From Candidatus Poribacteria bacterium (lineage in GTDB: Bacteria; Poribacteria; WGA-4E; PCPOR2b), in the NCBI GenBank assembly GCA_028819845.1, contig JAPPKS010000027.1, forward strand, positions 1-64,000: 64,000 nt of DNA, written 5' to 3'. Both the position numbers and the translations under genes were made by a program. Every line of letters starts with the position of its first letter. Positions within the stretch are counted from its first letter, which is position 1. The notes under the pieces were generated by a model. The model saw only the letters and a program-made list of their open reading frames with translations. It was not told the origin of the DNA and did not search any database. Positions 20,832 through 41,907 of the stretch are shown in pieces.

Positions 20832-21545
20832 TTAGTGAGCGTGATGTTCGTGTAGCGGAAGTAGCCCTTCATAAGTCGAGATTTTACCTTGTTCGATCCC
20901 AAGGCGACGGTTTGCGTCTCTTAACAAACGTTCGTTAGTACTCTGTTCCGTTTTCAAGCCGGTAAGTTTGCTTTGTGCCTTTCTAAGGTCCGCCTCGAGT
21001 GAGGGGACTTCTCTTTCCTTGCTCTGTTTTGCTATTGTGATTGCTAAATCGTAATGAGTTATCCGCAGATCTAGTTTTTCAATGGCTTTTTTTGCCTCCT
21101 TCTTGTCGGCAACAGCCATATCATACCTATCTTGCATAAGGGCTCTGTCGCTTGGTGATGTGCACTCGTTGTAAGCGGTGATGATTCCGTCACATCTATT
21201 GATGGTTGCATACTTTGATCTGCGTTCGTTGTCTACCTCACTTCTTTCCCTATTAAGGGTGTCGATTTTAGTATCGAAAGCTTGAATCTTGCCTTCGATT
21301 GTTGCTTTTTCCGCCTCGGCTCCTTTGATTTTTTGTTCGAGGGTTTTTTTCGTTGCTTGATGGTGACGTATTTCCGCGAGGATAATAGCGATAACGGCCA
21401 AACCGAGAGCAATAAGACCAGCGATTTCTAACCTGGTGAGTGCCTTCGTGGGCTGAACATGTACAATAAGATTCAGAAAAGCGACGATCGTTACGAGTGT
21501 TAGAACTAGAAAAAACGGGTTTTGCCTTAGAGTTAGAGCGGACAT
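20832..21545 (-). CDS. Two-helix membrane protein with long coiled coil and His-rich tail
   Basis: Not a family I recognise. The 237-residue product has two hydrophobic helices (about residues 10-28 and 40-60, IAGLIALGLAVIAIILAEI), then about 165 residues of charged heptad-like sequence (QKIKGAEAEKATIEGKIQAF and onward) and a short tail LPLHEHHAH. The topology suggests a membrane-anchored coiled-coil rod. A strong AAGGAGG precedes the start. The gene starts about 48 bases downstream of the second structured element and ends 11 bases before the amber-interrupted gene. The His-rich end recurs in other proteins of this operon. Confidence 0.7.
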   Translation of the reverse strand: MSALTLRQNPFFLVLTLVTIVAFLNLIVHVQPTKALTRLEIAGLIALGLAVIAIILAEIRHHQATKKTLEQKIKGAEAEKATIEGKIQAFDTKIDTLNRERSEVDNERRSKYATINRCDGIITAYNECTSPSDRALMQDRYDMAVADKKEAKKAIEKLDLRITHYDLAITIAKQSKEREVPSLEADLRKAQSKLTGLKTEQSTNERLLRDANRRLGIEQGKISTYEGLLPLHEHHAH

Positions 21546-21592
21546 AGTTATAACCTCCTTAATGTTGATTTGCGATTGAGTGATTGATCGAG

Positions 21593-21750
21593 AAAAAAAC
21601 TGGGATGCGACTTCGTTCCTCGAATCGCTTATCCCCGTGTTTCTTGAATCGAAACTGACGGCATTAAGGGGTTATACTATTGGCTTGAAGCGATTCGAGG
21701 TCTGGTCTCGGGTAGCTTCAGAGGAATCCGAGTTGAGGCTCGGATTCCTC
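21593..21750 (-). ncRNA. Structured intergenic element, copy 2
   Basis: Read on the minus strand: a perfect 12-bp hairpin (21739-21750 with 21721-21732, 6-base loop), a conserved linker CCCGAGACCAGA, then a perfect 13-bp long-range stem (21688-21700 with 21618-21630) enclosing 57 bases that contain AGTATAACCC, and finally seven T at 21593-21599. A second copy lies at 21997-22149, and paired positions change together between the copies. It lies between the 64-residue membrane protein gene and the coiled-coil gene at 20832-21545. It could be a leader or attenuator for the downstream gene or a processed RNA; the function is unknown. Confidence 0.6.
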
Positions 21751-21765
21751 AACACACTAATCTGT

Positions 21766-21960
21766 TTAATAACCTCCTTTTTTCTTCGTATATTTCGAAT
21801 ACAATGTTTTTACGCAAAGGGGTAAACAGCCACAGGCGCTAATGATTGTTAATGCGGCCACCAATGGGCTAAACTCGTAGCGATGTCCTAATCCTACTGT
21901 AAAATAGAAAATACACCAGGTAAAAATAAAAACGACTCCAATCCAGAGTATAGTTTTCAT
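21766..21960 (-). CDS. Small two-helix membrane protein
   Basis: A 64-residue protein with two hydrophobic segments (IGVVFIFTWCIFYFTVGLG, about residues 7-25, and LVAALTIISACGCLPLCV, about 33-50) and a basic C-terminal tail KYTKKKGGY. GGAGGAG lies upstream of the ATG. No family is recognised. It is the middle gene of the second ECF operon and is bracketed by the two structured elements. Its size and ribosome site support a real gene despite its shortness. Confidence 0.6.
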   Translation of the reverse strand: MKTILWIGVVFIFTWCIFYFTVGLGHRYEFSPLVAALTIISACGCLPLCVKTLYSKYTKKKGGY

Positions 21961-21996
21961 GAACTTTACTCCTCCACGTTGTTTGTGGTTGGCCTT

Positions 21997-22149
21997 AAAA
22001 AAAGACAGAGTTGCGTTCTCGAATCACGCAACCCCTGTAATTTCGATCGACACTAAATGTTGTTAAGGGTTATACTGTTTGCATGTAGTGATTCGAGGTC
22101 TGGTCTCGGGTGACTACTAGGGGGACTCGAGTTGTGGCTCGGGTTCCCC
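21997..22149 (-). ncRNA. Structured intergenic element, copy 1
   Basis: Same architecture as copy 2: a hairpin (22138-22149 with 22120-22131, two mismatches), the identical linker, a perfect 10-bp stem (22088-22097 with 22018-22027) enclosing 60 bases, and seven T at 21997-22003. The hairpin shows A-T to G-C and T-A to C-G exchanges relative to copy 2, and the long stem shows a G-C to A-T exchange. The 22 bases spanning the stem and linker are identical in the two copies. It precedes the 64-residue membrane protein gene. The preceding 157 bases (22150-22306) hold an AAGGAGG site followed by ATGATG opening only a short frame of about two dozen codons. Confidence 0.6.
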
Positions 22150-22306
22150 AACCCACAACTTTGTCAGGATACGCTTACCTATTTTATACGACTTCCCCCC
22201 AAAAGTGCCAACTCTTTTTGACAAAAATGTTGACTTTGTCGTAACATCATTTACCTCCTTGAAAATGGGAGAATGGGAGGGGCGCATATTCCGCTGGCTT
22301 GCTTTG

Positions 22307-26085: not shown

Positions 26086-28863
26086 GTGTCAAAACCGAAT
26101 CGTGAAAAATTGAAGAACGATATTAATTCCGTCCCGACGGACGTGCAGCCTGCCGCAATTACACTGGATGGCGCAGTGGTGACCTTTTCAGAGGGTGAAA
26201 CCATCTACGATGTTGCGCATCGCCATGGCATAGACATTCCGACGCTCTGTTACGATCCCCGCCTGGATGCCTTCGGCGGATGCCGCCTTTGCATTGTCGA
26301 GCTTGAAGGGACGCGAAATCCGGTTGCCTCTTGCACCACGAAGGCAGCACCCGGTATGGACGTCCGAACAGCAACGGGGGAGATTGAGAAACACCGCAAA
26401 GTTTTGCTTGAAATGGTTGCCTCCGAGAACCGAGAACTTGATGTCAATCCCCTGCGCGGCTATGCGTCACAGGAACTTACGGCCCTTGTCGAACGCTACG
26501 AGGCGCGTACCGGGCGCTTCAACGGAAAACGGTCCGGCGCTAGCAACACGGTCGACGAGAATCCCTTTATTCTGCGCGATTACGACCTGTGTATCTCCTG
26601 CTACCGATGTGTGCGTGTTTGCGCGGAACAGGAGGGAGATTACGCCATTAGTGTAATGAACCGCGGTTTTGACACGCAGATTACGACCGAGTTCAACGGC
26701 ATTTTGAAAGACTCCGCATGCACCTTTTGCGGACAATGCGTACAGACGTGCCCCACCGGGGCGCTTGCCGACAAGAAGGCACTGCGCGCAGTGAATCTTC
26801 CGGGCGAAATCGAGAAGACGCGCACGATTTGCCCGTACTGCGGCGTCGGCTGCTCAGTTGACATGCTGACCAAAAAAGACAGGCTCATCGGTATCCACCC
26901 CGCGATGGACGGTCCGGCTAACCAAGGCGCGCTCTGTGTTAAGGGGCAGTTCGCCTTCGATTTTGTGCAGCACCCTGACCGGTTGTCAACTCCGTTGGTT
27001 CGCGGCGGCGACGGTCAACTCCGCGGTGCAAGTTGGGACGAAGCGCTCGACCGCGCTGCTGACGGCTTTCGTGCGGTGCGGGAGAAATACGGTAGACACA
27101 GTATTTACGGCGTTGCTTCCGGGCGTGCGCCGAATGAAGCGGCGTACCTAATGCAGAAGTTTATCCGCGCCGGTTTCGGAACGAACTACATAGACAACTG
27201 CAGCCGCGCCTGACACGCGCCGACGGTTGCCGGTCTGGCAGCCACAATCGGACGCGGCGCAATGTCGAATCCGCTTATTGACATGGAGAAACCCGATGTT
27301 ATATTTTGCATTGGCACAAATATGACCGAATGCCATCCTGTCGCCGCAACGCGCCTCAAGAAAGCGGTCGCACGGGGAGCCAAGCTAATCGTTGCTGATC
27401 CGCGGCGGATTGGGCTTGTGGGGCTATCGAATCTCTACCTCCCGATTCGAGTCGGTTCGGACGTTGCACTACTGCTCGCCATGGCGCACGTAATCGCCCG
27501 CGAGGGGCTTATTGACCTAGAGTTCATCTCTAATCGCACGACTGACAGTGAGGATTTTCTTGAGCATGTCAGGGCGTTCCCGCCGGAGTGGGCTGAAACG
27601 ATAACGGGCGTCCCCGCACGGGATATTGAGGTTGCGGCGTTGTGGTACGGTATGGCGGACAAAGCTGCAATCTACTATACGCTCGGGATCACCGAACATA
27701 TCTGCGGCGTTGACAATGTACAGAGTTTGTGCAACCTCGCCCTTATGACGGGTAACATTGGCCGCGAGGGAACGGGCATTAACCCGATGCGCGGACAGAA
27801 CAACATTCAAGGTGCGGGCGACAGCGGCGCACTTCCGAACAACTACCCCGGTTTTCAATCCGTCACTGATCCGGCGAACCAAGCGAAATTCAATAGGTTG
27901 TACGGTGCCGACATTGACTTGGAAAAGGGCGTCACCAAAGTTACGGCGCTCGACCTGTGCGGCGAACAGATTCGGGCAATGCTTATTGACGGCGAGAACA
28001 CACTGCTCTCCGATCCCAATCGAGCGCACTGCGAACACGCACTCAGGAGCCTCGACCATCTTGTGGTGATTGATATATTTTTGACCGATACGGCGCAACT
28101 TGCAGACGTCGTGCTGCCCGCGGCCGCTTGGGGCGAAACCGAAGGCGTGTGCACAAACACGGAACGCCGAGTCCAGCGTGTCCGTGCGGGTGTGCCGCCG
28201 CCGGGCAAGGCAATGCCGGACTGGTGGATTGTTGCCCAGATTGCCAAACGACTCGGTTTTCAGGGATTCGCATTCGGATCGGCGGAGGAGATTTTCAACG
28301 AACTCTGCAGCGCTTCACCCCTCTACGCGGGTATCGATTGGGACCGGATTGACGAAGGGGCGTACCAATGGCCGGTGCCTCACGAGGGACACCCCGGCAC
28401 ACCGATGCTGCACGAAGATAAATTCGAGAACGGCCGCGGTATCTTTACACGTATATACTATCGCGACCCGGCAGAGACGATAGACAACGACTTTCCCGTC
28501 TGGCTTACCACCGGACGCCGGCTCGCGTCCTACCACACACGCACACAAACTGGCCGTTCGCAGGGCATTGACTATCTGCTGTCCGAGGAGGCTTTAGAGG
28601 TGAACCCCAACGACGTTCAGGCGTGGGGGCTAATGGATGGCGGTTGGTGCCAGATGACCAGTGCACGCGGTACGGTAAAGATACGAGTTAAAGCCACGCA
28701 GCGTTCGCCGCGCGGTACGGTGTTCGCCAGCTTTAGCTTCAGCGATGTACCTGTAAACATCCTAACAGGTTCGGGTTATGACCCGGTTACACATACGGCT
28801 GAACTCAAAGTCTGCCCCGTCCGCATTGACCCCGCCGAAGAGCAGATGCCGGCTTCACACTAA
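26086..28863 (+). CDS. fdhF: Formate dehydrogenase alpha subunit, selenocysteine-containing
   Basis: Oxidises formate to CO2 at a molybdopterin (Mo or W) centre. One frame of 925 codons is interrupted only by TGA at 27211-27213 (codon 376), where NCSRA-U-HAPTVAGL aligns with the NCARV-U-HxPSVAGL active site of selenocysteine enzymes. Before it lie a NuoG-like [2Fe-2S] domain (Cys 55, 66, 69, 83), two ferredoxin clusters (169-179 and 212-222) and the Mo-enzyme [4Fe-4S] motif CPYCGVGC (249-256, with Cys284). After it come the molybdopterin-binding domains (GQNNIQGAGDSG) and the C-terminal domain. Translation starts at GTG with AAGGA upstream. Gene finders without selenocysteine will report two genes, 26086-27213 and 27262-28863. 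The sel genes are not in this window. Confidence 0.93.
27211..27243 (+). promoter_or_regulatory. Bacterial SECIS element with its UGA codon
   Basis: UGA at 27211-27213 is followed by a hairpin: GGUUGCC (27225-27231), loop GGUCU (27232-27236), GGCAGCC (27237-27243). This is 7 pairs including one G-U. The stem start GGUUGC and loop GGUCU are the same as in E. coli fdhF, where SelB binds the apical loop, and the spacing from the UGA is also alike. Confidence 0.9.
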
Positions 28864-38467: not shown

Positions 38468-38534
38468 TCTAAATCCTCTCGCGCAGCCACAGGCTTGGTG
38501 CCTGTTAACATACAAGGTTAAATTCTAAACCTCC

Positions 38535-38565
38535 AAAAAAAAGCCTCCAATCATATTGGAGGCTT
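38535..38565 (-). terminator. Intrinsic terminator in the rplJ leader (attenuator)
   Basis: On the minus strand: AAGCCTCCAAT, loop ATG, ATTGGAGGCTT, then eight T in all at 38535-38542. The 11-bp perfect stem (9 G/C-rich core pairs plus two A-T pairs) and T-run are a textbook terminator, located between rplA and rplJ at the end of the L10 leader. Confidence 0.9.
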
Positions 38566-38690
38566 AACTTCTAATTCGACAATAGGCACATAACTTCAGA
38601 ACCTAATCCCTATCGTCTTCATGGCGATGCAAGCCTCGGTAGGCTGAATCTCTCATTTAAGCAAATTGCACCTACTGTCTACGACCGCTC
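38566..38690 (-). ncRNA. Ribosomal protein L10 leader
   Basis: Minus strand: CGTAGACAGTAGGTGC (38668-38683), then an AT-rich loop, then AGCCTACCGAGGC (38632-38644). This matches the L10-leader consensus (GUAGACAGCAGGUGC ... CCUGCCGAGGU), including the pairing CAGTAGG/GCCTAC. Free L10 (with L12) binds such leaders to repress rplJ-rplL. Here the leader ends in an intrinsic terminator, so control is probably by attenuation. Confidence 0.85.
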
Positions 38691-38797
38691 TTCAAAATGA
38701 TATTCAAATTTTAAGCACGAACGGTGAGTTTCAAGGCAACCTAGTATTAGACATCTTTCCTAATTAACTCAATGTGGTTGACAAAACCGAAGCGTTA

Positions 38798-41103: not shown

Positions 41104-41177
41104 CAGGCCAGGAGGGACTCGAACCCCCAACCCTCGGTTTTGGAGACCGATGCTCTAGCCGGTTGAGCCACTGGCCT
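41104..41177 (-). tRNA. tRNA-Trp (CCA)
   Basis: Acceptor AGGCCAG/CTGGCCT, anticodon stem TCGGT/ACCGA with loop CTCCAAA, T-arm GGGTTCGAGTCCC. It lies between rpmG and secE, the usual place. Confidence 0.95.
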
Positions 41178-41201
41178 GCAAGCAAGGAAATGATTGATGT
41201 T

Positions 41202-41354
41202 TTATCGAGTTTCTTTGTGTAGTGTGTGTTTCCGACAAAAACGACAATATTTTTTAAACTCAAAACGCGATTGTTGTTTTCTTTTGTTCCTTGTCGTCAC
41301 ATAGTTTCGCCGTTTGCAATCATCACACGCTAACGAAACGACATCTCTAGGCAT
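41202..41354 (-). CDS. rpmG: Ribosomal protein L33
   Basis: A 50-residue protein, MPRDVVSLACDDCKRR onward, with two CxxC pairs (CDDC, CRFC), the zinc-binding form of L33. The longer in-frame reading from 41444 runs back into tRNA-Thr and is rejected. It lies 24 bases upstream of tRNA-Trp. Confidence 0.94.
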   Translation of the reverse strand: MPRDVVSLACDDCKRRNYVTTRNKRKQQSRFEFKKYCRFCRKHTLHKETR

Positions 41355-41402
41355 ATCGGTTACTCGAATATTAATACATATCGGTTTTGAAACGCATACT
41401 GA

Positions 41403-41475
<73 letters not shown>

Positions 41476-41613
41476 ACAGCAAACATGTCCCCGTTCCGAC
41501 ATTCGCCGGATTCGCCATTAAGCAAACCGCGCTCCAGTGAAATGCCACTCGGGAGTTTGGCGAAATAGCTGTCCAAATTCAAAGGGGACTACCAAAAAAA
41601 TATCAGAACGCCA

Positions 41614-41687
41614 AGCGGGAGACGGGGTTCGAACCCGCGACAATTGGCTTGGAAGGCCAATGCTCTACCAACCTGAGCTACTCCCGC
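41614..41687 (-). tRNA. tRNA-Gly (TCC)
   Basis: Acceptor GCGGGAG/CTCCCGC, anticodon stem TTGGC/GCCAA with loop CTTCCAA, T-arm GCGGGTTCGAACCCCGT. The 138-base spacer to tRNA-Thr(GGT) holds no gene but has inverted TGTCCCC and GGGGACT near its ends. Confidence 0.95.
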
Positions 41688-41732
41688 GTTGTATCTGAAC
41701 TGCTTTCGCGTTTTGCTGTGCGCCATACGTGA

Positions 41733-41814
41733 TGGGGAGAGAAGGATTCGAACCTCCGAAGGCATAGCCAACAGATTTACAGTCTGCCCCGTTTGACCGC
41801 TTTGGTATCTCCCC
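41733..41814 (-). tRNA. tRNA-Tyr (GTA)
   Basis: Acceptor GGGGAGA/TCTCCCC, anticodon loop CTGTAAA, and the long variable arm expected of class II bacterial tRNA-Tyr (82 bases). Confidence 0.95.
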
Positions 41815-41834
41815 AGCCGGTGTACAAAGAATGG

Positions 41835-41907
41835 AGCTGGCGAGAGGAATCGAACCCCCAACCTAGTGATTACAAATCACTTGCTCTGCCCGTTGAGCTA
41901 CGCCAGC
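41835..41907 (-). tRNA. tRNA-Thr (TGT)
   Basis: Acceptor GCTGGCG/CGCCAGC, anticodon stem AGTGA/TCACT with loop TTTGTAA, T-arm GGGGGTTCGATTCCT. First gene of the tRNA-translation operon. Confidence 0.95.

Follow-up and report, generated by a model that had tools for sequence, protein, structure and literature searches.

Two similar intergenic elements precede two different membrane-protein genes on the minus strand of a Poribacteria contig, and the question they raise is whether they are repeated DNA or structured RNA leaders, and, if leaders, how they would act on the genes behind them. We therefore examined their parts, their relatives in other genomes, the pairings that the relatives conserve, and the genes that follow them. 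The window is the whole 64,000-nucleotide stretch of DNA that was analysed.

Architecture of the two copies in the window

Both elements lie on the minus strand, copy A at approximately 22152-21997 and copy B at approximately 21753-21593 (minus-strand reading), with the following parts and neighbors:

22183..22211, minus strand: likely promoter of copy A, TTGGCA-17 nt-TATAAA (direct reading)
22120..22149, minus strand: P1 hairpin of copy A (sequence reading, fold, covariation)
22085..22117, minus strand: P2 hairpin of copy A, GUAGU...ACUAC (alignment, covariation)
22088..22097, minus strand: 5′ arm of P5, the antiterminator, in copy A; same strand as the P2 3′ arm (alignment, pairing counts)
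22067..22076, minus strand: conserved core of copy A, AGUAUAACCC, whose CCC is the P4 5′ arm (alignment)
22018..22027, minus strand: 3′ arm of P5 in copy A, within the terminator hairpin (alignment, pairing counts)
22007..22035, minus strand: terminator hairpin of copy A, GGGGUUGCGU/ACGCAACUCU (fold, energies, covariation)
21997..22003, minus strand: seven-T run of copy A (sequence reading)
21766..21960, minus strand: gene for a 64-aa membrane protein behind copy A (no Pfam match)
21721..21750, minus strand: P1 hairpin of copy B (sequence reading, fold, covariation)
21687..21719, minus strand: P2 hairpin of copy B, GAAGC...GCUUC (alignment, covariation)
21690..21699, minus strand: 5′ arm of P5 in copy B (alignment, pairing counts)
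21668..21678, minus strand: conserved core of copy B, AGUAUAACCCC (alignment)
21619..21628, minus strand: 3′ arm of P5 in copy B (alignment, pairing counts)
21602..21636, minus strand: terminator hairpin of copy B (alignment, energies)
21593..21599, minus strand: seven-T run of copy B (sequence reading)
21554..21564, minus strand: ribosome-binding region of copy B, CAUUAAGGAGG, complementary to CCCCUUAAUG at 21671-21662 (P6; pairing, whole-leader folding)
20832..21545, minus strand: gene for a 237-aa membrane-anchored coiled-coil protein behind copy B (ORF translation, Pfam scan)

A sequence-only reading had described two minus-strand elements, each with a long-range stem and a seven-T run, and all of these are present; the stem is P5, of 10-12 bp (CUCGAAUCRC with GYGAUUCGAG). 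The 12-nt P1 arms that it had also proposed are fully paired in copy B and carry two mismatches in copy A. Copies A and B fold more stably than 200 dinucleotide shuffles (z -3.2 and -4.3, respectively). Pairwise alignment placed their likeness in approximately 150 nt (74%) and found none in the flanking genes. Because this homology ends at the element edges, gene duplication, in the form of a segment extending through both genes, is excluded.

Two further parts extend the earlier description. Both copies contain the P2 hairpin, whose 3′ arm doubles as one strand of P5, and ahead of each T-run stands a terminator hairpin built on the other P5 strand. The terminators were called from folds and alignment; a generic terminator scan restricted to loops of ≤8 nt reported none at either copy, because their loops exceed that length. 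The likely promoter of copy A was not reported either, since the scanner accepts only -10 boxes ending in T. Directly upstream of most other copies lies a TTGACA-type -35 box, often AAAAAGTNTTGACA. We rejected a family-specific promoter, as the AAAAAGTNTTGACA type is found elsewhere in these genomes too.

Other features of the window were recorded alongside. A single in-frame TGA, at NCSRA-U-HAPTVAGL, interrupts a formate dehydrogenase alpha gene (26086-28863, plus strand) and is therefore probably a selenocysteine codon; a tRNA-Sec match is present in the same genome (G000:C21:5473-5562; 77.5 bits; cut-off, 47). The minus strand also holds a match to the Rfam L10 ribosomal protein leader (38528-38702; 56 bits; cut-off, 44) and five clustered tRNA genes (41104-41907).

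Distribution and covariation of the family

The window's own genome contains a third copy (G000:C9:28943-29144), followed by the gene for a 164-aa protein whose N-terminus is hydrophobic. The covariance model built from these three copies matched 13 of 73 genomes of the order, with E values down to 1e-20 outside the own genome, and a 21-copy model matched 17 of 85 phylum genomes, partial and degenerate matches included. The covariance-model search of related genomes, which the sequence-only reading had proposed, thus recovered 21 full copies in 10 genomes, and the element is not confined to this locus: three copies occur in G000, four each in G001, G004, and G006, and one each in G005, G007, G008, G012, G033, and G056.

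Matches to the P2 pattern numbered 25, spread over 12 of the 85 genomes (reversed control, 0). Of 19 pattern matches in named genomes, 18 were in Candidatus Poribacteria; the other, a Bradymonadales contig (L052), has P2 only, with the other parts absent, and was rejected. No full copy was found outside Poribacteria by the pattern search of named genomes or by scanning viral contigs with a loose P2 pattern; many matches arose there, and those tested among the matches listed were rejected by the covariance model and are attributed to chance. Kinship with the Poribacteria copies would place the window itself in this phylum too. Judged by these sequence comparisons, A and B belong to what we regard as a real and new regulatory RNA family, multi-copy and limited to one lineage. 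The open-access literature yielded no account of a riboswitch or leader from Poribacteria.

The order of parts is common to all 21 full copies, and their alignment accommodates two alternative sets of pairings. For the OFF fold, in a model-fitted alignment, 92.1% of pair cells are standard and 19 pairs show double-sided change, compared with 7.8 in shuffles; when the partners were shifted by 1-3 columns, pairing fell to <48%. For the ON fold (P1, P5, P3, P4, and P4a), 87.6% are standard, with 14 double-sided pairs against 6.8 in shuffles. P5 alone is 97.1% paired across copies, although one full copy (L006) keeps it only with a bulge.

Because kinship among the sequences inflates double-sided counts, we applied a tree-based null in which columns evolved independently on the tree of the copies with an equal number of changes. 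The excess persisted in P1 (p 0.001), P2 (p 0.015), P3 (p 0.014), and the terminator (p 0.004) and was marginal in P5 (p 0.043), which supports the compensatory changes, and hence the selection for RNA structure, proposed from copies A and B. Under the same null, P4 (p 0.26-0.47) and P4a showed no covariation. An unrestricted search of all column pairs returned nothing significant, because 21 related sequences give little power; its best pair (E 0.10) was the P1 loop pair. Of the 21 full copies, 14 close this loop with U.G and the other 7 with C.A, an isosteric exchange without intermediates among them. Copies A and C show a joint change from C-G-C to U-A-U at columns 44/83/198 that leaves P2 and P5 both paired. 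The loop sequences of P1 and P2 are not conserved, and the P2 loop is 6 or 7 nt long.

Exclusive folds and a proposed switch

Since the P2 3′ arm and the terminator strand both serve P5, P5 is mutually exclusive with P2 and with the terminator. Predicted energies place the P5/P4 fold and the P2 fold within a few kcal/mol of each other in most copies before the terminator 3′ arm exists, and favor the terminator fold in 20 of 21 copies once the element is complete. The exception is copy B, whose element is predicted to be more stable in the ON fold than in the terminator fold. The predicted pattern is what a co-transcriptional switch would need. We consider it likely that the element is a cis-acting attenuator, placed as a 5′ leader (A) or an intergenic leader (B) of an exported- or membrane-protein gene; the aligned sequences support well a design with two exclusive folds, not one fixed structure.

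We infer that switching would proceed as follows. In the OFF fold, P1, P2, and, in most relatives, P3 would form, and the terminator hairpin with its T-run would stop RNA polymerase; in read-through RNA, the freed CCUUU strand would pair with the Shine-Dalgarno (SD) region (P6). In the ON fold, the P2 3′ arm would pair with the terminator loop and 5′ arm (P5) and CCCUUU with AAAGGG of the terminator 5′ arm (P4); the terminator could then not form, and the ribosome-binding site would be freed. A signal acting in trans, be it a small molecule, a protein, or another RNA, would tip the balance between the two.

The pairing behind P6 is visible in the relatives, where CCUUUANGCCAUU, the 5′ strand of P4, complements the sequence directly before the start codon, GAUGGCAUUAAGGAG. 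A copy's own P6 pairing beats SD-preserving shuffles (p≤0.04) in 18 of 21 copies and is no better than these shuffles in copies A, B, and L013; in copy A, P6 is weak. Own-copy pairing also exceeds cross-copy pairing (p 0.0014, without tree correction). Folding of whole leaders predicted, for 15 of 21 copies, an SD more accessible in the ON fold. These predictions suggest that, in most relatives, pairing of the antiterminator strand with the ribosome-binding site forms a second, translational lock.

The invariant AGUAUAA strand, located in the junction enclosed by P5, would be the best candidate for a sensing site. That this core binds a small signal, and that the family is a new Poribacteria riboswitch class co-ordinating exported proteins through transcription and the translation lock, is a tentative proposal that we hold at somewhat less than even odds.

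Several variants depart from this plan. At L039 6827-6966 (minus strand; same place as L023), P1, P2, and P3 are present with no terminator, and CCCUUC lies directly ahead of the SD AAGGAG, which suggests a translation-only platform. As L023 has no terminator and its CCCUU directly faces the SD, a P4-like pairing would there take the opposite sign. Near-identical P2-AUGUAUAAC variants occur in another genus (L037 6567-6646, L050 1343-1413, and L016 219-368), some with P1; no terminator was seen in them. In the G006 copy at L030 1501-1676 (plus strand), P2 and P5 are fused into one long hairpin before the terminator.

Target genes, competing readings, and known systems

Most downstream ORFs are short and have a hydrophobic or signal-like N-terminus, as in signal-peptide or membrane-anchored proteins; a few are uncertain. 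They comprise lipoprotein-like proteins, coiled-coil membrane proteins, and small secreted proteins rich in Cys, behind which a larger anchored protein is encoded, and Pfam searches of the target proteins returned nothing beyond a generic coiled coil or weak Ig-like matches. Anchored proteins with a common C-terminal motif, EEGLRRLRESDPEAA, are repeatedly the second gene behind the element (L048, L053, L041, L049, and L038), and those scanned had no Pfam match. The earlier observation that each window copy precedes a distinct membrane-protein gene holds. The ECF-operon setting noted with it is not general: an ECF sigma gene lies beside A/B, none was seen beside the other copies read, and among the downstream operons read, only that of the G012 copy also contained one.

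The family probably decides whether exported-protein genes are read and translated. It would give the uncultured phylum Poribacteria a regulatory RNA family of its own, absent from Rfam and with ≤4 full copies per genome, and it points to a set of exported proteins that are putatively regulated together. Should there be a ligand, its identity would show what these bacteria sense before they remodel their surface.

The attenuator reading leaves a choice of trigger. A protein rather than a small molecule could bind the leader and pick the antiterminator or terminator fold, a reading that differs in the trigger only and that we rate on a par with the small-signal proposal. The many exported-protein targets, with no metabolic gene in common, would fit it, and the helices are the best-supported parts, as expected for a protein that reads duplexes or loops. 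However, the P1 and P2 loop sequences vary, and no dedicated regulator gene was noticed beside the copies read, the ECF sigma gene being restricted to the neighborhoods mentioned above.

It is unlikely that the main role of the element is to produce a terminated small RNA whose free CCUUUANGCCAUU strand targets ribosome-binding sites in trans. Promoter and terminator would indeed yield an RNA of approximately 150-200 nt, and the strand is complementary to SD regions across copies too (cross-copy mean, -12.6 kcal/mol). Nevertheless, an ORF lies close downstream in nearly every full copy examined, the pairing is better within a copy than between copies, and a simple small RNA has no need of mutually exclusive P5 and P2.

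Copies do seem to travel as cassettes: L040 and L035 have 497 nt in common at 95.6% identity, ending just past the T-run, with different downstream genes, and L044 and L051 carry a common segment across genera. Decay was also observed, as the G005 counterpart of the G007 locus is without the element's 5′ half; near the G033 copy, weak CRISPR direct-repeat matches were noted (L010 2495-2678). Such mobility would suit a plain duplicated or mobile DNA segment with no regulatory role, its structure a by-product. The compensatory changes in several helices, the conserved promoter-element-SD order, and the end of A/B homology at the element make this very improbable. Least plausible of all is ribosome-coupled attenuation by a leader peptide, which we rejected: an open frame spans P1 and P2 in some copies, but no conserved short ORF was found among the copies, the 6- or 7-nt P2 loops and differing frame ends break any common frame, one copy is without an open frame, and an SD would not fit after the expected transcript start.

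The attenuator reading can then be set against known leaders. As the sequence-only reading had recognised no known riboswitch or leader, so no Rfam family matches: the 4227 families of Rfam 15 gave no match at the A/B site at the gathering threshold, and a relaxed threshold over the window and eight related loci gave chance-level matches only, none credible. The family has the conserved, structured cis leader RNA of a riboswitch and, computationally, an expression platform with exclusive folds (P5 versus P2 plus terminator). Transcription-terminating riboswitches, such as those of the SAM-I or purine type, are likewise 5′ leaders with upstream helices and an exclusive antiterminator/terminator with a T-run. 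In contrast to Rfam riboswitches, which it matches in neither sequence nor structure, the family targets exported proteins rather than a metabolic pathway and has a predicted additional SD pairing. T-box leaders have the antiterminator/terminator choice in common with it, and the T-box covariance model gave no match at normal or relaxed thresholds.

Leaders under ANTAR control and protein antitermination leaders of the RAT/LicT type also place hairpins ahead of a terminator with which they compete. The signature of ANTAR-bound RNA is paired hexaloop hairpins with conserved loop positions. P1 and P2 are without this conserved hexaloop signature (the P1 loop letters vary inside the U.G/C.A pair, and the P2 loop, of 6-7 nt, is variable), and no such regulator gene was noticed adjoining the copies read. 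The family therefore works like a terminator/antiterminator leader and is possibly a riboswitch, a name that would require a ligand. In dual-control leaders, which combine termination with SD sequestration, one leader can act on both the terminator and the SD; the Poribacteria family would differ in that the same CCUUU strand would serve both roles.
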